NCBI GenBank assembly: GCA_938743325.2
Contig: OW568892.1
Coordinates: 372,001 to 436,000, forward strand
DNA length: 64,000 nt
Direction of reading: 5' to 3'
Origin: Pycnococcus provasolii
Lineage: Eukaryota > Chlorophyta > Pseudoscourfieldiophyceae > Pseudoscourfieldiales > Pycnococcaceae
Shown here: one piece after another, positions 5,177 to 12,938 of the stretch
How the letters are laid out: each line of letters begins with the position of its first letter
Numbering within the stretch: position 1 is the stretch's first letter
The notes under the pieces: generated by a model
What the model was told of the DNA's origin: nothing
What the model saw: the letters and a program-made list of their open reading frames with translations, nothing else
The model's database searches: none
Program-made: the position numbers and the translations under genes

Positions 5177-5545
5177 GAGTGAGTTGACCAAATGCCGACG
5201 AGTGAGTTGTGAAATGCCGACGATGTGTGTGGAGCGGGGTTGTGAAAGGAGCGGGGGGTGGGGGACCTGGTGGTAGGGGGTGCAAGGTCTTCGTCGTAGG
5301 GAAAAGTCAACAACGTACGTGGATTTGTACGGGAAGGAAGCACCGGCCTAGAAAAAGAAGACAAGCCAAGGGAGGGGCCCCGGACCAGGGGCAGGGGCTT
5401 GCCACATTTTTGCCACAGGAGGAGCTTGCAAGCTTAAGCAAGTTTGGCTGTTGGGGAGATAGTTGAGGAGCAGAGGCTTCAGAACGAAGTCCTACATGTG
5501 CTGTGTGCATGGGGATACCGGTTCATCGACGTGTTCACGTAAACC

Positions 5546-5673
5546 TACAGGAGGTCTCGAGTTCGAATCTCGGCTCAGCCCCGTTCTTCGAAAATACGCC
5601 GCAACAGCGGCAAGCTTTTTTAAGTCCAACCTCGTCAGGCTGTGTGGTCTAGTGGCATGATTCCTGTTTTGGG
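5546..5673 (+). tRNA. Circularly permuted tRNA-Pro(UGG), left copy
   Basis: The 3' half (5546-5580, nucleotides 38-72) precedes the 5' half (5638-5673, nucleotides 1-37), with 57 bp between. Joined in functional order they give: acceptor GGCTGTG/CTCAGCC (6 of 7 pairs, T-T at 6:67), D arm GTCT…ATGA with G18G19, anticodon stem CCTGT/ACAGG (5 of 5), loop TTTGGGT with anticodon TGG, variable loop AGGTC, T stem TCGAG/CTCGG and T loop TTCGAAT. Invariant T8, A14, G15-C48, G18G19 and TTC are present. Leader and trailer can pair: AACC (5542-5545) with GGTT (5674-5677), then GTTC with GAAC further out, giving a bulge-helix-bulge-like site at the 37/38 junction. A 9-T run at 5692-5700 fits a Pol III terminator. 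Permuted nuclear tRNAs are known from red and prasinophyte algae. Maturation is inferred. Confidence 0.88.
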
Positions 5674-5691
5674 GGTTAGGAACCACACACA

Positions 5692-5700
5692 TTTTTTTTT
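5692..5700 (+). terminator. Pol III-type T-run after permuted tRNA-Pro
   Basis: Nine consecutive T residues start 19 bp after the last nucleotide of the 5' half, the expected place for termination of a permuted pre-tRNA transcript. The inverted copy has nine A residues at 11599-11607. Confidence 0.7.
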
Positions 5701-6175
5701 GCACCGCGTCGCCGCGTCGCTACACGTTGCACTACACGCCGCGTCGTCGTCGCATGCGGGTACCACACAATCGTCGTCGCCGCTCCCGGGGCTCCTAAAA
5801 GGCCTTTTCGCTCGGGGGCCGGGGCGGCGCCGCGGCGGGGGGCGAGGGGGGGAGCGGGGGATGTAAAAAACCAAGTTTTCTCCCGGGTGAAACTTGGATT
5901 TTTTAGATATGATCCCCCGAACGAACCGGTCACGCACTCACACAACCTACCCCCGCCCATACATACCACTACAATACTACTACTACTACGTAGCGATCCT
6001 CTTTCTCGTGTGCTGCCGTGCTGCGATGAACTCAGACTCAACTCTCAAGTCGGTCAACGCAAGTAAGTGTGGAAGCACACACAGCAGGTAAGCTCGCGGC
6101 GACGAAGAGATATAGTGGCGAGGCCGCGGGAGCAAATTTGTCTGCGTTGGCTGCGCTCCCTACTTATTGTCAAGT

Positions 6176-6196
6176 CCCTAACCCTAACCCTAACCC
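6176..6196. repeat. Interstitial telomere-like array in left arm
   Basis: Three and a half perfect CCCTAA units, 112 bp upstream of the receptor start codon. It is present in the mirror position of the right arm, so it predates the inverted duplication or was copied with it. Confidence 0.85.
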
Positions 6197-6307
6197 GATG
6201 CAAGACAAATACTTCCTACTTCGTCCCGAATGACCACCTCAACTTGGCCACCTCTGCAATTTCCCCATCACCACAACCAGCGCCCTCACTGACATACGGG
6301 ACCGGCC

Positions 6308-9300
6308 ATGGGGTGTGCGGCGTCGACGGCGGCGGAGCAAGTACACGGCGCGGCGTCGACGTCAACATCAACGGCGCGCAAGGAAGAACTCTGGCCGACG
6401 ACGGTGCTGCCAGTCAAGCCAACGAGGCAAGACGTCGTTGGTGTGAAGATTCAGGCCGAACATGCGTCCGAGTCGCCCGTAGGCCGCGCGGTGTCGCTCG
6501 CATGGCTTGCACAGTTTGTTGAGGCGCACGCCGGAACGACGCAAAGCTGGGACGTCGTCAAGGAGTTCATGGCTGAGGAGGATGGTGGTGGGAAAGATAC
6601 GAGCTTGATCGTGACGTCTGACAACGTAGAGATGCACCGCGATAAGCGACGCGCGGCTGAAAAAACAAAAAGTGGCAAGCCGGTTCCGGTGGAGTACCGC
6701 GACATCCCGTTCGAGCAGATGTACACGACGGACGTCGTCGAGTGCTTCGTGCGTTCGCTGGCACGCAAAAAGCACATGAGCTACGCTCAGGCGAAGGACC
6801 TTCCTGTGGGCGCGCCGACGTACTTCATTTCGCACGCGTGGGGAAGCCTTTTCGTTGACCTCGTGGAGAGCGTGAAAGGGGCACTTGCGGGCGCTGCTCA
6901 AAACGATACGTACGTGTGGCTTGACATTTTCGCCATCAACCAGGATGATACGGGCGGAGTATTCTCGGCCATGCACGAGCTAGACGACGGCCGCACGCTC
7001 GCTGGTACGATTGCGACGTCGCGCGCAACGCTCGTTGTGCTGGATAAAGATCGCGTCATCCCGCTGACGAGGTTGTGGTGCCTGTACGAGATCGGGTCGA
7101 CACCACCGCAGAAGCTGCAGCTCGTCACGCACGGCTTCTCGGAAAAGGACGTGTCGCAGCACATTCGCAACATCGATGCGGAGACGGCGCTGTGCTTTTC
7201 GCCCGCGGACAAGGAGATGATTCACGGCGAAATCACGGGCAAATTTAAGTTTGAGAGTCTGAAGCACTTCACGGAGGAGCTTAAGCTGCGTTTCATGCTC
7301 CGTCCAATGAGCTACGAGTCGGATTTGCAGGCGTTGCGAGAACGTGGACAGAGCAACGAGTACCAGTTGGAGGATCTGCGTGCACATGTGACGTCGACCG
7401 GTGGACGTCTTGCATGCGTTGTTGGCGGACCAGGCGAGGGCAAGTCGAGTGTGGCTGCAGCGGCCCTCGACATGGTTCACGCGGCTCACTTCTGCAAGCG
7501 TGCGGACGTCAGGCGCCAGGATGTGCTTGAAATGGTGAGGTCGCTTAGCTTTCAGCTTGGTCAACGCTTCGACGTCGTTCGCGAATGCCTGATTGATCTG
7601 GAGGAAGACATCGCGGCAAAGGCGCTCGTCGACCCGGATGTTGCGGTGAACGCGCTTTTGGTGAATCCGCTGAAAAAGCTTGCTAAAATTCAAAAGCATG
7701 CGGTGATTTTGTTGGATGCACTCGACGAGGCGGACGATGACCGGCACATTTCCAATGCTGCAGTCGGGTTGCTTCGGCATCTCGCTCGTGATGTGCGCTT
7801 GAGTGTTTCTGTGCTTGTGACGACGCGCCCAGATGCGGATGGTGACTATCCTCGTCGACGCGTGCTGGAGCACGATTGGGAGGGTGGCATGCGCGTGATG
7901 GAGCCTGCACATGTTCTTGGGCCTGCCCCGGTGGAAGTGGAACAGGAGGAGAGTCGCCTTCCAGGACCCTGGGAAGAGGCGATGCGCAACATGCAGAGCA
8001 TCAAGGTGTACCAGATTGTTGCTCGTAAGTTTGTCAAGCGATACGGCACAAACTTGGAGCCACCTGCGGATATTGATGCCGCGTATAAGCTTTGGTTTGA
8101 TCGCGCAGCGAAGGATGACGTGGAAGTTCGTAGGCTGATTGACATTGTGCTAGCTTCGCGCGAACCTCTCTCGTCGGCGCATGTTGATAGATTGCGTTTG
8201 CGAGAGACGTGCGAGCGCCTACCTGGTTGGGGACTGCTATTTGAAGAGCGCGATCACCTGCTGCAGACGTTGCACTTGTCGTTGCGTGAGTTTTTGGGAG
8301 ACACGAAGCGATCAGGCGAGCACGCAGCAGACGTGTTTCGTGGACATCATGAGCTGGCGCGATCTTGCCTGGACGTTCTGAAACGTGGCGACGACGAGAA
8401 GGGGCCGGCTGTGGCGTATTCCTTGCGACATGCACACGTGCACTTGACTGATGCGGTTGAGAAGATGCTGCATGGTGGTGATGAGACGTTGACGACAAAT
8501 GTCGTGAAGGAGTGGTCTGATGCGTTCATGGTGGAGCGTCAAATGGAGGCGTCGATGATTCCTGAGGGATACAAGGCGTCACGTTGGTGCGCGACAGAGT
8601 TTGCGGGTCTGTGGTTGAAGCGTCAGATGGATGCAGGTCGAAGAGGCGTGCTCGTGGTGGAATTGCTGCGCCTCGAAAAGGCGCTTTTGGAAGCGAAGAA
8701 AAAGTTGGCGAATGATGCTACTGGGTTGGTGGCGACCGTGGAATCGTTGCATGCTTTTGTTCGCGTACTTCGGTGGGGAGTTGGGACGTATTCGCAGGCT
8801 GGATTGATTGCAGCGAATGTGCCGTGTACGAGTGTATGGTATCAGAGTCCAGGACAGTCGGTATTGACATATTGTACGCCGAGCCTTTGCATGCCTGCTC
8901 GTGTGGATATTGATGCGACGATTCTCAACAACATGAGAGGCCATACTGATTATGTGACTTCCGCATCGTATTCCGCGGATGGTACGCGCATCGTCTCCGC
9001 GAGCGATGACAAGACCGTTCGCGTCTGGGACGCGACGACCGGCGCGTGCATATCTGTGCTGGAAGGCCATTCTCGTGATGTGACTTCCACCTCGTATTCC
9101 GCGGATGGGACGCGCATTGTCTCCGCGAGCGATGACAAGACCGTTCGCGTGTGGGACGCGACGACCGGCGCGTGCATATCTGTGCTGGAAGGCCATTCTT
9201 CTGCGGTGAGATCCGCATCGTATTCCGCGGATGGTACGCGCATCGTCTCCGCGAGCGGTGACGATACCATTCGCATGTGGGACGCGACGACCGGCGCGTG

Positions 9301-10699
9301 TCTATCTGTGCTGGAAGGCCATTCTTCTGCGGTGCTTTCCGCATCGTATTCCGCAGATGGTACGCGCATCGTCTCCGCGAGCAGGGACAAGACCGTTCGC
9401 ATGTGGGACGCGACGACCGGCGCGTGCATATCCGTGTTGGAAGGCCATTCTGATTATGTGAGATCCGCCTCGTATTCCGCGGATGGTACGCGCATCGTCT
9501 CCGCGAGCGATGACAAGACCGTTCGCGTCTGGGACGCGACGACCGGCGCGTGTTTATCTGTGCTGGAAGGCCATTCTTCTGCGGTGAGATCCGCATCGTA
9601 TTCCGCGGATGGGACGTGCATCGTCTCCGCGAGCGATGACAACACCGTTCGCGTGTGGGACGCGACGACCGGCGCGTGCATATCTGTGCTGGAAGGCCAT
9701 TCTTTTTATGTGACTTCCGCCTCGTATTCCGCGGATGGTACGCGCATCGTCTCAGCGAGCTGGGACAAGACCGTTCGCATCTGGGACGCGACGACCGGCG
9801 CGTGCATATCTGTGCTGGAAGGCCATTCTCGTGATGTGACTTCCGCATCGTATTCCGCGGATGGGACGCGCATTGTCTCCGCGAGCGATGACAGTACCGT
9901 TCGCGTTTGGGACGCGACGACCGGCGCGTGTATATCAGTGCTGAGGGGCCATTCTTATGATGTGTCATCCGCATCGTATTCCGCGGATGGGACGCGCATC
10001 GTCTCCGCGAGCTTTGACAAGACCGTTCGCATGTGGGACGCGACGACCGGCGCGTGTGTATCTGTGCTGGAAGGCCATTCGATTTGGGTGACATCCGCAT
10101 CGTATTCCGCGGATGGGACGCGCATCGTCTCCGCGAGCGAGGACACGAGCGTTCGCATCTGGGACGCGACGACCGGCGCGTGTGTATCTGTGCTGAAAGG
10201 CCATTCCAGTATGGTGACATCCGCATCGTATTCCGCGGATGGGACGCGCATCGTCTCCGCGAGCGAGGACAAGACCGTACGCGTGTGGGACGCGACGACT
10301 GGCGCGTGTTTATCTGTGCTGGAAGGCCATTCTTCTGCGGTGAGATCCGCATCGTATTCCGCGGATGGGACGCGCATCATCTCCGCGAGCAGGGACACGA
10401 GCGTTCGCATCTGGGACGCGACGACCGGCGCGTGTGTATCTGTGCTGGAAGGCCATTCTGGTCCGGTGTCATCCGCATCGTATTCCGCGGATGGTACGCG
10501 CATCGTCTCCGCGAGCTTCGACAATACCGTTCGCATCTGGGACGCGACGACCGGCGCGTGCATATCTGTGCTGGAAGGCCATTCTTCTGCGGTGCGTTCC
10601 GCCTCGTATTCCGCGGATGGGACGCGCATCGTCTCCGCGAGCTTGGACAAGACCATTCGCGTTTGGGACGCTGAGACATATGTCATCGAAGTAACATAA
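6308..10699 (+). CDS. NACHT-WD40 receptor-like protein with N-terminal HAW-motif domain
   Basis: Intronless, 1463 aa. It starts MGCAAS, a good N-myristoylation plus palmitoylation signal, so membrane attachment is likely. Residues about 110-330 hold a domain with YFISHAWGSLF, VWLDIFAINQ and a WCLYEI block; its beta-strand/Asp pattern recalls TIR-like folds but the family is not certain. Residues about 360-500 are a NACHT-type STAND ATPase with Walker A GGPGEGKSS (about 373) and Walker B VILLDALDEAD (about 467). Residues 500-870 are helical. Residues about 876-1463 are 14 WD40 repeats of exactly 42 aa. STAND proteins of this layout act as signal-sensing switches in innate immunity or allorecognition (fungal HET-D/HET-E, animal and bacterial NLR-like proteins); that role is inferred. 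The first 86 codons and the promoter are duplicated in inverted orientation just beyond the 3' end. Confidence 0.88.
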   Translation: MGCAASTAAEQVHGAASTSTSTARKEELWPTTVLPVKPTRQDVVGVKIQAEHASESPVGRAVSLAWLAQFVEAHAGTTQSWDVVKEFMAEEDGGGKDTSLIVTSDNVEMHRDKRRAAEKTKSGKPVPVEYRDIPFEQMYTTDVVECFVRSLARKKHMSYAQAKDLPVGAPTYFISHAWGSLFVDLVESVKGALAGAAQNDTYVWLDIFAINQDDTGGVFSAMHELDDGRTLAGTIATSRATLVVLDKDRVIPLTRLWCLYEIGSTPPQKLQLVTHGFSEKDVSQHIRNIDAETALCFSPADKEMIHGEITGKFKFESLKHFTEELKLRFMLRPMSYESDLQALRERGQSNEYQLEDLRAHVTSTGGRLACVVGGPGEGKSSVAAAALDMVHAAHFCKRADVRRQDVLEMVRSLSFQLGQRFDVVRECLIDLEEDIAAKALVDPDVAVNALLVNPLKKLAKIQKHAVILLDALDEADDDRHISNAAVGLLRHLARDVRLSVSVLVTTRPDADGDYPRRRVLEHDWEGGMRVMEPAHVLGPAPVEVEQEESRLPGPWEEAMRNMQSIKVYQIVARKFVKRYGTNLEPPADIDAAYKLWFDRAAKDDVEVRRLIDIVLASREPLSSAHVDRLRLRETCERLPGWGLLFEERDHLLQTLHLSLREFLGDTKRSGEHAADVFRGHHELARSCLDVLKRGDDEKGPAVAYSLRHAHVHLTDAVEKMLHGGDETLTTNVVKEWSDAFMVERQMEASMIPEGYKASRWCATEFAGLWLKRQMDAGRRGVLVVELLRLEKALLEAKKKLANDATGLVATVESLHAFVRVLRWGVGTYSQAGLIAANVPCTSVWYQSPGQSVLTYCTPSLCMPARVDIDATILNNMRGHTDYVTSASYSADGTRIVSASDDKTVRVWDATTGACISVLEGHSRDVTSTSYSADGTRIVSASDDKTVRVWDATTGACISVLEGHSSAVRSASYSADGTRIVSASGDDTIRMWDATTGACLSVLEGHSSAVLSASYSADGTRIVSASRDKTVRMWDATTGACISVLEGHSDYVRSASYSADGTRIVSASDDKTVRVWDATTGACLSVLEGHSSAVRSASYSADGTCIVSASDDNTVRVWDATTGACISVLEGHSFYVTSASYSADGTRIVSASWDKTVRIWDATTGACISVLEGHSRDVTSASYSADGTRIVSASDDSTVRVWDATTGACISVLRGHSYDVSSASYSADGTRIVSASFDKTVRMWDATTGACVSVLEGHSIWVTSASYSADGTRIVSASEDTSVRIWDATTGACVSVLKGHSSMVTSASYSADGTRIVSASEDKTVRVWDATTGACLSVLEGHSSAVRSASYSADGTRIISASRDTSVRIWDATTGACVSVLEGHSGPVSSASYSADGTRIVSASFDNTVRIWDATTGACISVLEGHSSAVRSASYSADGTRIVSASLDKTIRVWDAETYVIEVT
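8935..10680 (+). repeat. Coding minisatellite: 14 WD40 units of 126 bp
   Basis: Each 126-bp unit encodes 42 aa around the core SASYSADGTRIVSAS…WDATTGAC. Units are nearly identical at the DNA level, even at synonymous sites. Variation is concentrated at the two residues after GHS (for example SA, RD, DY, FY, YD, IW, SM, GP), the residue before SASYS (T, R, L, S), the residue after VSAS (D, G, R, W, F, E, L) and the residue before WD (V, M, I). The last unit ends WDAETYVIEVT. This is the pattern of concerted evolution with retained diversity at putative ligand-facing positions. Confidence 0.95.
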
Positions 10700-10734
10700 C
10701 GTAACCTCCATTGGTATATAATAAAAGGACGAGA

Positions 10735-10991
10735 TCCTTGACGACGTCCCAGCTTTGCGTCGTTCCGGCGTGCGCCTCAACAAACTGTGCAAGCCATGCG
10801 AGCGACACCGCGCGGCCTACGGGCGACTCGGACGCATGTTCGGCCTGAATCTTCACACCAACGACGTCTTGCCTCGTTGGCTTGACTGGCAGCACCGTCG
10901 TCGGCCAGAGTTCTTCCTTGCGCGCCGATGATGTTGACGTCGACGCCGCGCCGTGTACTTGCTCCGCCGCCGTCGACGCCGCACACCCCAT
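10735..10991 (-). pseudogene. Truncated 5' copy of the receptor gene
   Basis: From the ATG at 10989-10991 on the minus strand the first 86 codons repeat the receptor N-terminus with one amino-acid difference (Thr to Ser at residue 22). Identity ends at 10735; the frame runs on to a stop at 10683 after unrelated residues (LVLLLYTNGGYVMLLR), giving a 102-residue ORF that lacks the HAW core, NACHT and WD40. It is convergent with the intact gene and overlaps its last 17 bp. Confidence 0.9.
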
Positions 10992-11102
10992 GGCCGGTCC
11001 CGTATGTCAGTGAGGGCGCTGGTTGTGGTGATGGGGAAAATGCAGAGGTGGCCAAGTTGAGGTGGTCATTCGGGACAAAGTAGGAAGTATTTGTCTTGCA
11101 TC

Positions 11103-11123
11103 GGGTTAGGGTTAGGGTTAGGG
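11103..11123. repeat. Interstitial telomere-like array in right arm
   Basis: Perfect GGGTTA units, the mirror of the array at 6176-6196. Confidence 0.85.
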
Positions 11124-11625
11124 ACTTGACAATAAGTAGGGAGCGCAGCCAACGCAGACAAATTTGCTCCCGCGGCCTCGCCACTATATCTCTTCGTCGC
11201 CGCGAGCTTACCTGCTGTGTGTGCTTCCACACTTACTTGCGTTGACCGACTTGAGAGTTGAGTCTGAGTTCATCGCAGCACGGCAGCACACGAGAAAGAG
11301 GATCGCTACGTAGTAGTAGTAGTATTGTAGTGGTATGTATGGGCGGGGGTAGGTTGTGTGAGTGCGTGACCGGTTCGTTCGGGGGATCATATCTAAAAAA
11401 TCCAAGTTTCACCCGGGAGAAAACTTGGTTTTTTACATCCCCCGCTCCCCCCCTCGCCCCCCGCCGCGGCGCCGCCCCGGCCCCCGAGCGAAAAGGCCTT
11501 TTAGGAGCCCCGGGAGCGGCGACGACGATTGTGTGGTACCCGCATGCGACGACGACGCGGCGTGTAGTGCAACGTGTAGCGACGCGGCGACGCGGTGCAA
11601 AAAAAAATGTGTGTGGTTCCTAACC

Positions 11626-11753
11626 CCCAAAACAGGAATCATGCCACTAGACCACACAGCCTGACGAGGTTGGACTTAAAAAAGCTTGCCGCTGTTGCGG
11701 CGTATTTTCGAAGAACGGGGCTGAGCCGAGATTCGAACTCGAGACCTCCTGTA
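11626..11753 (-). tRNA. Circularly permuted tRNA-Pro(UGG), right copy
   Basis: Identical in sequence to the left copy and in the opposite orientation. On the minus strand the 3' half is 11753-11719 and the 5' half is 11661-11626. Leader, trailer and the T-run (A-run at 11599-11607 on the plus strand) are also conserved. Both copies look equally intact, so at this locus the gene dose is two. Confidence 0.88.
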
Positions 11754-12101
11754 GGTTTACGTGAACACGTCGATGAACCGGTATCCCCATGCACACAGCA
11801 CATGTAGGACTTCGTTCTGAAGCCTCTGCTCCTCAACTATCTCCCCAACAGCCAAACTTGCTTAAGCTTGCAAGCTCCTCCTGTGGCAAAAATGTGGCAA
11901 GCCCCTGCCCCTGGTCCGGGGCCCCTCCCTTGGCTTGTCTTCTTTTTCTAGGCCGGTGCTTCCTTCCCGTACAAATCCACGTACGTTGTTGACTTTTCCC
12001 TACGACGAAGACCTTGCACCCCCCACCAGGTCCCCCCACCCCCCGCTCCACATCGTCGGCATTTCACAACGAACGTACCACTCGGCTTGGTCAACTCACT
12101 C

Positions 12102-12938
12102 ATGTCTTCTCTCGCGGCTCCTCCTCCACACGGCGAACCTTCTGAAGCTGAAAACGCCTCGCCCAACAAGCGCAGCAACAACACGGCAAACGACGACGCC
12201 GACTGCAACAATATCAACAACAACAACAACAACAACAACAGCAGCAGCGTCGTGAATCATGTCACATCAGGCATTCACCCGGCGCCAAACTCGGAGGACG
12301 GGGACCTGGCGCTCGCGCGGCTTCTCCAGCAGCAAGAGCGTGCCATGCTCATGATGTACGCGAACCCGGAAGATGAGTCAGAAGATGACGAAGATGTGGA
12401 CCCAAACGACGACGTGGCGCTCGCGAGGCGGCTGCAACGCGAGGAGGAGCGCGAGCAGCGAGCACGTCTTCTGGCACTGGCTGGTGTTGCTCCTCCAAGA
12501 GCTCAGCAGCAGCAGCAGCAGCAGCAGGAGCACTTGGGGGGTCAAGAAGACGCGGAGGGGGAGGAGGAGGAGGAGGAGGAGGAGGAAGAAGATGCGTTCC
12601 AGAGCGACGACGACGTCAATACGGACGGCATGTCATACGAGCAGCTGCTTGCCATTGGCGAGGCGAACGGCGCTGTGTCGAAGGGTGCATCCGCAAAGTC
12701 TCTCGTCTCCGTCTTGACGACGTGCAGACTGTGCGACGTTCCGGGCGCACGTGTTGACGAGCAGTGCAGCGTGTGCCGCGACGAGTTTGCCGACATGTGC
12801 TGCGAGGTGACGGTCTTGCCTTGCAAGCACTACTTCCACGGCGAGTGCATCACGCCTTGGCTGCAGGTGAATCGCGCGTGCCCGCTGTGCTTCCAGGACG
12901 TCGTCGCGGCCTCGACTGCCACCGACAACGACAGGTGA
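12102..12938 (+). CDS. BIG BROTHER-like RING-H2 E3 ubiquitin ligase
   Basis: 278 aa, intronless. The ATG at 12102 is the first in frame. Residues 1-60 are low complexity with poly-Asn and poly-Ser, residues 65-125 hold two LALARLLQQQ/VALARRLQREE helical motifs, followed by poly-Gln and poly-Glu. Residues about 180-205 contain MSYEQLLAIGEANGAVSKG, the signature that precedes the RING in plant BIG BROTHER-type E3s. The RING-H2 follows: CSVC-x-DEF…VLPCKHYFHGECITPWLQ…CPLC. It should transfer ubiquitin from an E2 to substrates; the substrates are unknown. Its first 41 codons and its upstream region form the outer end of the right inverted arm. Confidence 0.88.
   Translation: MSSLAAPPPHGEPSEAENASPNKRSNNTANDDADCNNINNNNNNNNSSSVVNHVTSGIHPAPNSEDGDLALARLLQQQERAMLMMYANPEDESEDDEDVDPNDDVALARRLQREEEREQRARLLALAGVAPPRAQQQQQQQQEHLGGQEDAEGEEEEEEEEEEDAFQSDDDVNTDGMSYEQLLAIGEANGAVSKGASAKSLVSVLTTCRLCDVPGARVDEQCSVCRDEFADMCCEVTVLPCKHYFHGECITPWLQVNRACPLCFQDVVAASTATDNDR

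Follow-up and report, generated by a model that had tools for sequence, protein, structure and literature searches.

The window analysed here is a stretch of 64 kb (C32:372001-436000) from a genome that was searched over 32.3 Mb in 46 contigs. It contains at 5546-5673 a circularly permuted nuclear tRNA-Pro(UGG) gene of type II, with its junction between nucleotides 37 and 38. The original prediction, made from the sequence of the window, had placed such a gene at exactly these coordinates, with the 3' half upstream of the 5' half, and both points were confirmed. The order on one strand is 3' half, 56-nt spacer, 5' half and a run of nine T residues (Table 1). When the two halves are re-ordered, the acceptor stem has 6 of 7 pairs (U6-U67 is a mismatch), the D stem has 3 of 4 pairs, one G-U among them, and the T stem has 5 of 5, again with one G-U. 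The anticodon stem, which is closed across the permutation point, has 5 of 5 pairs. The junction lies inside the anticodon loop (UUUGGG/U), and the loop UUUGGGU is completed only by joining nucleotide 37 to nucleotide 38. The near-perfect cloverleaf with five anticodon-stem pairs, a standard proline loop, a five-base variable loop (AGGUC) and the main tertiary residues (U8, A14, the GG of the D loop and U33) was thus recovered as described earlier. The T loop is UUCGAAU, and C73 is present.

Table 1. Features of the tRNA-Pro(UGG) locus and of its second copy, in positions of the window
Feature	Position	Strand	Evidence
3' half of tRNA-Pro(UGG), nt 38-73	5546-5581	+	model match, ARAGORN, cloverleaf
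Intervening sequence, 56 nt, from nt 73 to nt 1; contains a T6 run	5582-5637	+	
5' half of tRNA-Pro(UGG), nt 1-37, anticodon UGG	5638-5673	+	model match, ARAGORN, cloverleaf
T9 run followed by GC, probable RNA polymerase III terminator	5692-5700	+	
Leader nt -3 (A), pairs with tRNA nt 32 (U, 5668); anticodon-intron pair	5543	+	
GGGGATACCGGTTC, promoter-like element 5' of the 3' half	5511-5524	+	exact match
Second permuted gene copy, identical; 3' half 11753-11718, 5' half 11661-11626	11626-11753	-	
GGGGATACCGGTTC belonging to the second copy	11775-11788	-	exact match
Inverted repeat, left arm, carries the tRNA gene	5271-6564	.	100% complementary over 1294 nt
Inverted repeat, right arm	10735-12028	.	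100% complementary over 1294 nt

It had been expected that an ordinary tRNA scan would miss the halves, and this proved to be the case. ARAGORN called nothing on the 64-kb window in native order and so missed tRNA-Pro, and Rfam at gathering scores found nothing in the window. The re-ordered 72-mer was called tRNA-Pro(tgg) by ARAGORN. A search of the genome with the gene returned its own locus and the inverted copy only. The energy of the precursor is ordinary in comparison to shuffled sequences (z 0.13), and the cloverleaf makes up just a part of the best predicted structure. Two covariance models were used to score the gene. A permuted-cloverleaf model (R1, 14 seeds) gave 54.9 bits, a value which is partly circular because the tRNA-Pro gene is among its seeds. 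The seeds of the other model (R2) were 13 tRNAs of the same genome, namely 11 organellar ones and, after excision of the introns, the nuclear Tyr and Trp; this set has no member that is permuted in the genome, and the tRNA-Pro gene was left out. R2 gave 40.9 bits (E 6e-12 in 64 kb) both for the gene and for its minus-strand copy, and the next-best match in the window had an E-value of 0.2. A score at background, which had been named as an argument against the gene, was therefore not observed. Over 33 loci R2 listed 34 matches, 17 of them with an E-value below 1e-5; one of these 17 is an unpermuted Tyr gene which is itself a seed of R2, and one is the locus L082. As the unpermuted Tyr gene reaches 28.9 bits, R2 scores up to about 28.9 bits are no proof of permutation. 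Genes broken up by extra introns get low R2 scores.

The flanks of the halves had also been predicted to pair as in a bulge-helix-bulge (BHB) splice site. The junction is indeed flanked by AACC/GGTT, but the energies of the leader-trailer duplexes over 23 permuted genes did not support such a helix. Comparison of own with mismatched pairs gave p 0.71 at 12 nt, 0.26 at 18 nt and 0.18 at 24 nt, with Pro ranking 2nd of the 23 genes at 18 nt. A leader-trailer helix as a general splice signal was rejected, since at none of the three lengths was it above the mismatched controls. The eukaryotic endonuclease is known to use an anticodon-intron (A-I) pair, in which the partner of nucleotide 32 is the third base counted back from the 3' splice site. 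The A-I pair is named in a figure legend of PMC4090602. With the leader treated as the 3' end of an intron and leaders permuted among genes, nucleotide 32 and leader nucleotide -3 were found to be Watson-Crick paired in 18 of the 23 permuted genes, Pro included (permutation p 0.0003, for a cell picked on biological grounds, but after the leaders had been inspected), and in 19 when G-U is counted (p 0.002). Some genes have C-G at this place, others U-A. Among all loop-by-leader cells the top count was 20, at 33/-3, which involves the invariant U33, and the family-wise p was 1.0. In the case of Pro, U32/A-3 extends to a pairing of 32-35 with -3 to -6, with three Watson-Crick pairs and a last G-U. 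By eye, the 37/38 introns of the five unpermuted genes showed a Watson-Crick 32/-3 pair in Met and Gly, G-U in Leu and none in Tyr and Trp. As flank evidence the anticodon-intron pair thus seems to hold up better than the leader-trailer helix. Joining of the halves by spliceosomal back-splicing was considered and dismissed, because leaders in general lack a terminal AG and trailers an initial GT.

The upstream motifs counted were GGGGATACCGGTTC and TGTCAC. With up to 1 mismatch, GGGGATACCGGTTC occurs at 230 sites in the genome as against 4 for the reversed control. Some tRNA genes have it upstream, but it also occurs at many sites elsewhere, and 18 of 20 sampled sites are without a visible tRNA, which argues against a tRNA-specific promoter. 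It is perhaps a core promoter element. A second promoter-like motif was looked for in the tRNA-Pro spacer and none was found. The T6 run inside the spacer might end transcription by RNA polymerase III (Pol III) early.

By analogy with the pathway of Cyanidioschyzon we infer how pre-tRNA-Pro would be transcribed, cut, circularized and trimmed. Pol III would transcribe the gene up to the T9 run from an upstream promoter, which is expected because permutation has reversed the order of the internal A and B boxes. The precursor would form a cloverleaf with its acceptor end closed by the spacer and its anticodon loop open. With the mature fold and the 32/-3 pair as guides, the tRNA-splicing endonuclease would then cut before nucleotide 38 and after nucleotide 37, and a ligase could join 37 to 38 to give a circle. 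RNase P and RNase Z would excise the spacer, and CCA would be added afterwards.

The genome-wide tRNA family search, in which 63 of 587 candidates were scored, gave 27 matches above the cut-off. Only 3 of these are nuclear, Tyr on C11 and a Trp pair on C3, whose introns measure 60 and 64 nt; no conventional nuclear tRNA-Pro, the presence of which had been raised as an objection to the permuted gene, was listed among the matches. Further loci came from A-box/B-box motif searches, the promoter-like motif and the introner search; those from the motif search with 175 matches and from the GGGGATACCGGTTC search were taken among the matches listed. In most cases the motifs by themselves were no more frequent than the reversed controls (175 vs 225, 79 vs 65, 20 vs 11 and 17 vs 20), and hence each locus was accepted only when a whole tRNA could be assembled. 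A-box patterns of the Asp/Glu/His type (3 vs 3 in the reversed control) and of initiator-Met (27 vs 28) gave no excess.

From these loci 28 tRNA genes were assembled by hand, 23 permuted and 5 unpermuted, in a list that is incomplete. The permuted ones are Pro(UGG), Met-like (CAU), Val(AAC), Val(CAC), Thr(UGU), Thr(CGU), Arg(CCU), Arg(UCU), Lys(UUU), Glu(UUC), Glu(CUC), Ala(UGC), Ala(CGC), Cys(GCA), Ser(UGA), Ser(GCU), Ser(CGA), Ser(AGA), Leu(UAG), Leu(CAA), Ile(UAU), Tyr(GUA) and Phe(GAA), and the unpermuted ones are Tyr(GUA), Trp(CCA), Leu(CAG), Met(CAU) and Gly(GCC). Permuted nuclear tRNAs had been called rare in the original prediction and known mainly from red and prasinophyte algae; the host is apparently a prasinophyte, as this would have it, but in its own genome permutation is common, with 23 of the 28 assembled genes. 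ARAGORN agrees with the assigned anticodon in 27 of the 28 genes (22 of the 23 permuted), the gene it missed being Ile(UAU), which has a long D loop. The 37/38 junction was assumed for all 23 permuted genes. Modelled in this way, the permuted Met-like gene (L044, C9:7799 region) gets U37 and the permuted Tyr (L066, C26) gets C37; non-purines at 37 are abnormal, so these two junctions may be wrong. Both have unpermuted counterparts, Met(CAU) on C23 (L085) and Tyr(GUA) on C11 (L040). Spacers measure 5-74 nt in all 23 genes. A run of T7-T12 begins within 39 nt past the 5' half in 20 of the 23, and runs of at least 6 T were absent from the 60 nt examined for the permuted Met and Tyr genes and from the 19 nt examined for Arg(UCU).

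L069, L070 and L082 are likely permuted tRNAs with GT-AG introns and were left out of the 28. L069 (C7:591400-592600) is likely Ala(AGC) with several GT-AG introns, and the 3' strand of its anticodon stem seems to hold a small hairpin insert. In Val(AAC), Val(CAC) and Ala(CGC) (L046, L047 and L068) the T loop starts with AUCGA in place of UUCGA. The loci L055, L064, L065, L081, L083, L086, L087, L088 and L109 were judged by eye not to be tRNA; L064 resembles 18S rDNA.

A feature that goes beyond the original prediction is the presence of GT-AG introns in 14 of the 28 tRNA genes (11 of the 23 permuted and 3 of the 5 unpermuted), in which the tRNA is complete once GT...AG segments are removed. 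There are 23 such segments, of 69-80 nt. They start with GTAAGT (10), GTACGT (6) or variants of these, and they end in CAG (17) or TAG (6); the GT and AG ends themselves are universal by construction, because the borders were hand-placed at GT and AG. In 14 of the 23, CTRAY stands 10-50 nt before the 3' end, whereas 500 shuffles gave 5.5 on average and 13 at most. Intron positions, determined by eye, include 6/7, 8/9, 23/24, 28/29, 29/30, 31/32, 47/48, 61/62, 62/63, 63/64 and 64/65. The tRNA-Phe(GAA) gene is permuted and carries four GT-AG introns. Loci with one to four of them are L067 (C15:143300-144700), L066 (C26), L068 (C16), L080 (C34), L106 (C37), L122 (C7), L072 (C23), L073 (C7) and L085 (C23). 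The placement of the borders was also examined blindly, in seven single-intron permuted genes with their outer ends fixed and 138-333 candidate cuts each, on cloverleaf features alone. The GT-AG cut came out on top in 2 and tied with a one-base slide in 5, thus in 7 of 7 genes, and GT-AG cuts make up 0.3-1.5% of the candidates.

Some of these introns are related to each other. Those of Ala(CGC) at 64/65, Ser(AGA) at 29/30, Arg(UCU) at 28/29 and Ile(UAU) at 6/7 are 83-96% alike. Search of the genome with one member of this family gave 28 matches, of which 21 span all 75 bases; five of the 28 lie in four tRNA genes, one of which is present in two copies. From the other 23 copies 18 were fetched for a frame test. 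On removal of the intron, 16 of these 18 non-tRNA copies have an open frame of at least 87 codons across the join (with a second frame nearly as long in 5 of the 16 and the border set by the script inexact in 2), and the remaining two have 54 and 62 codons. Pfam was applied to 10 of the 16 joined peptides and a domain spans the join in 8, with two giving no match. The spanning domains are dynein (four), the U5-snRNA-binding domain of Prp8, methionine sulfoxide reductase, an FAD-binding domain and a beta-lactamase fold, the last below the cut-off. As frames and Pfam domains cross the joins, one intron family is common to protein and tRNA genes. The intron shared by Phe and Tyr (L067:554-628) was tried as a further large family and has only 4 matches in the genome, all of them at these two tRNA loci or in the inverted copies of the two.

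The GT-AG introns of the tRNA genes look like spliceosomal introns of a mobile, introner-like kind. Since permuted tRNA genes also carry GT-AG introns of the family found in protein genes, the maturation of Pol III tRNA precursors appears to depend on the spliceosome as well as on the tRNA-splicing endonuclease, and in the genome-wide system the GT-AG introns would be lost most simply through the action of the spliceosome on Pol III transcripts. It is likely, on the evidence of the assembled genes, that mobile spliceosomal introns have invaded nuclear tRNA genes, mostly permuted ones (11 of 14), and that one and the same Pol III precursor passes through the spliceosome and the tRNA-splicing endonuclease. 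Another enzyme for these introns is conceivable. The tRNA-splicing endonuclease could cut them at ectopic bulge-helix-bulge sites as in Cyanidioschyzon, where according to Soma 2014 tRNA genes often hold up to three introns of 11-69 bp, and the GT and AG borders would then be incidental, the more so as they were placed by hand at GT and AG where possible. This is improbable in view of the blind test, which agrees with GT-AG in seven genes, of the GTAAGT or GTACGT starts in 16 of 23, the lengths of 69-80 nt and the enrichment of CTRAY, and of the fact that members of the same family are introns in coding genes.

For the tRNA-Pro locus itself, the halves could be leftover pieces of neighbouring decayed tRNA-Pro genes and the locus now a pseudogene; duplication with loss of the outer exons is indeed one proposed origin of permuted genes (Soma 2014). 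In such a case the missing halves might be found nearby, but ungapped matching revealed no trace of a 5' half in the upstream kilobase (best 18 of 36) or of a 3' half in the downstream kilobase (best 19 of 36), against a background with mean best 17.9 and maximum 20 over 49 other kilobases. The anticodon and T stems are complete, T9 follows the 5' half, the 32/-3 pair is kept and the same order of halves is seen in 22 other assembled genes, which together make decay very unlikely. A split tRNA, the halves of which are transcribed separately and joined in trans, could find a terminator for its first transcript in the T6 run of the spacer. In split tRNA genes the halves lie at separate loci and have their own promoters and terminators, whereas in tRNA-Pro they are 56 nt apart on the same strand, with T9 after the second half only and no second promoter-like motif in the spacer, and the spacers are 5-74 nt in all 23 assembled genes, so that we regard a split gene as highly improbable. 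Chance or an assembly artefact has hardly any probability left. Although 32 Mb of sequence yields short motifs by chance and an assembly error could create an inverted repeat, the independent model gave E 6e-12 and the outer 139 nt of the repeat arms are 99% alike, not 100%; moreover the assembly, if it is that of PMC11130579, is described there as having 444-fold HiFi coverage and QV 58.2. It is thus very probable that tRNA-Pro(UGG) is a working permuted nuclear gene (type II, 37/38) in two identical copies, that it belongs to a genome-wide system of permuted and GT-AG-intron genes, and that it is processed as proposed above.

Introner elements are known from Micromonas, dinoflagellates and others as multi-copy, similar, short spliceosomal introns at unrelated sites. 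The introns described here are alike in that closely similar short introns occupy unrelated positions, and they differ in that copies also sit in tRNA genes. Apart from rare exceptions, spliceosomal introns are regarded as a property of Pol II genes. In fission yeast the U6 snRNA carries an mRNA-type intron. It resembles the present case as a spliceosomal intron in a Pol III transcript, but U6 is a spliceosomal RNA, whereas here several tRNAs are affected with up to four introns per gene. No report of GT-AG introns in tRNA genes was found in the literature on permuted tRNAs, introners and Pol III splicing; subscription papers were mostly outside the coverage of the search, and the absence is therefore unproven. 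None is reported in the portions of PMC12730881, PMC11782384, PMC7789003 and PMC4494063 available to us, and the main texts of PMC3879977 and PMC8209157 do not mention tRNA.

Permuted tRNA genes were surveyed by Soma 2014, which lists 34 of them in six algae and one archaeon, with a predominance of the 37/38 junction in green algae and known intervening sequences of 1-74 bp; its table contains neither tRNA-Pro nor Pycnococcus. The tRNA-Pro(UGG) gene is a new case of the known type II permuted tRNA genes. Like those of Ostreococcus, Micromonas, Cyanidioschyzon merolae and the Bigelowiella nucleomorph, as far as they are described there, it has the 3' half upstream, a short spacer, the 37/38 junction and a T-run past the 5' half, and CCA is not encoded. 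The present host differs from those systems in belonging to a different prasinophyte lineage and in having at least 23 assembled genes, where Table 1 of Soma 2014 has a maximum of 11 for any one species (C. merolae) and 3-6 for each of the green algae. It also differs in that 11 of the 23 permuted genes hold GT-AG introns, whereas that table sorts its introns according to BHB type. Auxenochlorella was added later to the hosts of permuted tRNAs (PMC12633428); there too permuted nuclear tRNA genes of a green alga came to light after an incomplete tRNAscan-SE set, and GT-AG introns in permuted genes are unmentioned in the portion of that paper available.

The larger finding is, on the sequence data, a system at the level of the genome, in which the tRNA genes found are commonly permuted and in many cases contain introner-like introns. 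Permuted tRNA genes had so far been regarded as oddities of a few algae and one archaeon, and here they make up most of the assembled set. If the proposed system is real, translation itself would depend on the spliceosome, the tRNA set would be largely invisible to ordinary gene finders and introner elements would gain a new kind of target. A spliceosome-dependent tRNA set would show two splicing systems acting on one RNA, and the system offers a direct test of whether the spliceosome acts freely on Pol III transcripts. In such genomes tRNA counts made by standard tools can fail badly.

The two Pro genes lie one in each arm of the inverted repeat, and the arms are separated by 4.2 kb. Pairs of motifs on opposite strands a few kb apart were also seen at tRNA loci on C3, C7 (two), C9, C15, C16, C18, C20, C23, C26, C28 and C34. 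Only two of these besides Pro were aligned as sequence, giving arms of 99.9% identity over 2,042 nt on C3 and 99.5% over 1,185 nt on C9. On C25 only the promoter-like motif is paired, and such pairing proved misleading on C37, where C37:422822, a supposed inverted partner of the Arg(UCU) gene, was found to share the promoter-like motif only. The Pro inverted repeat (region 5271-12225) brackets a gene for a WD40-repeat protein with the N-terminus MGCAAST and a length of about 1,460 aa, the ORF of which runs from about 6308 to 10699. DNA related to the Pro repeat region adjoins Trp on C3 (83%, 656 nt) and Gly on C23 (88%, 209 nt). Telomere-like interstitial (CCCTAA)3 repeats are present in both arms (6176 and 11106), with GATGCAAGAC nearby, and similar telomere-like blocks were seen by eye beside tRNAs on C15 and C23.
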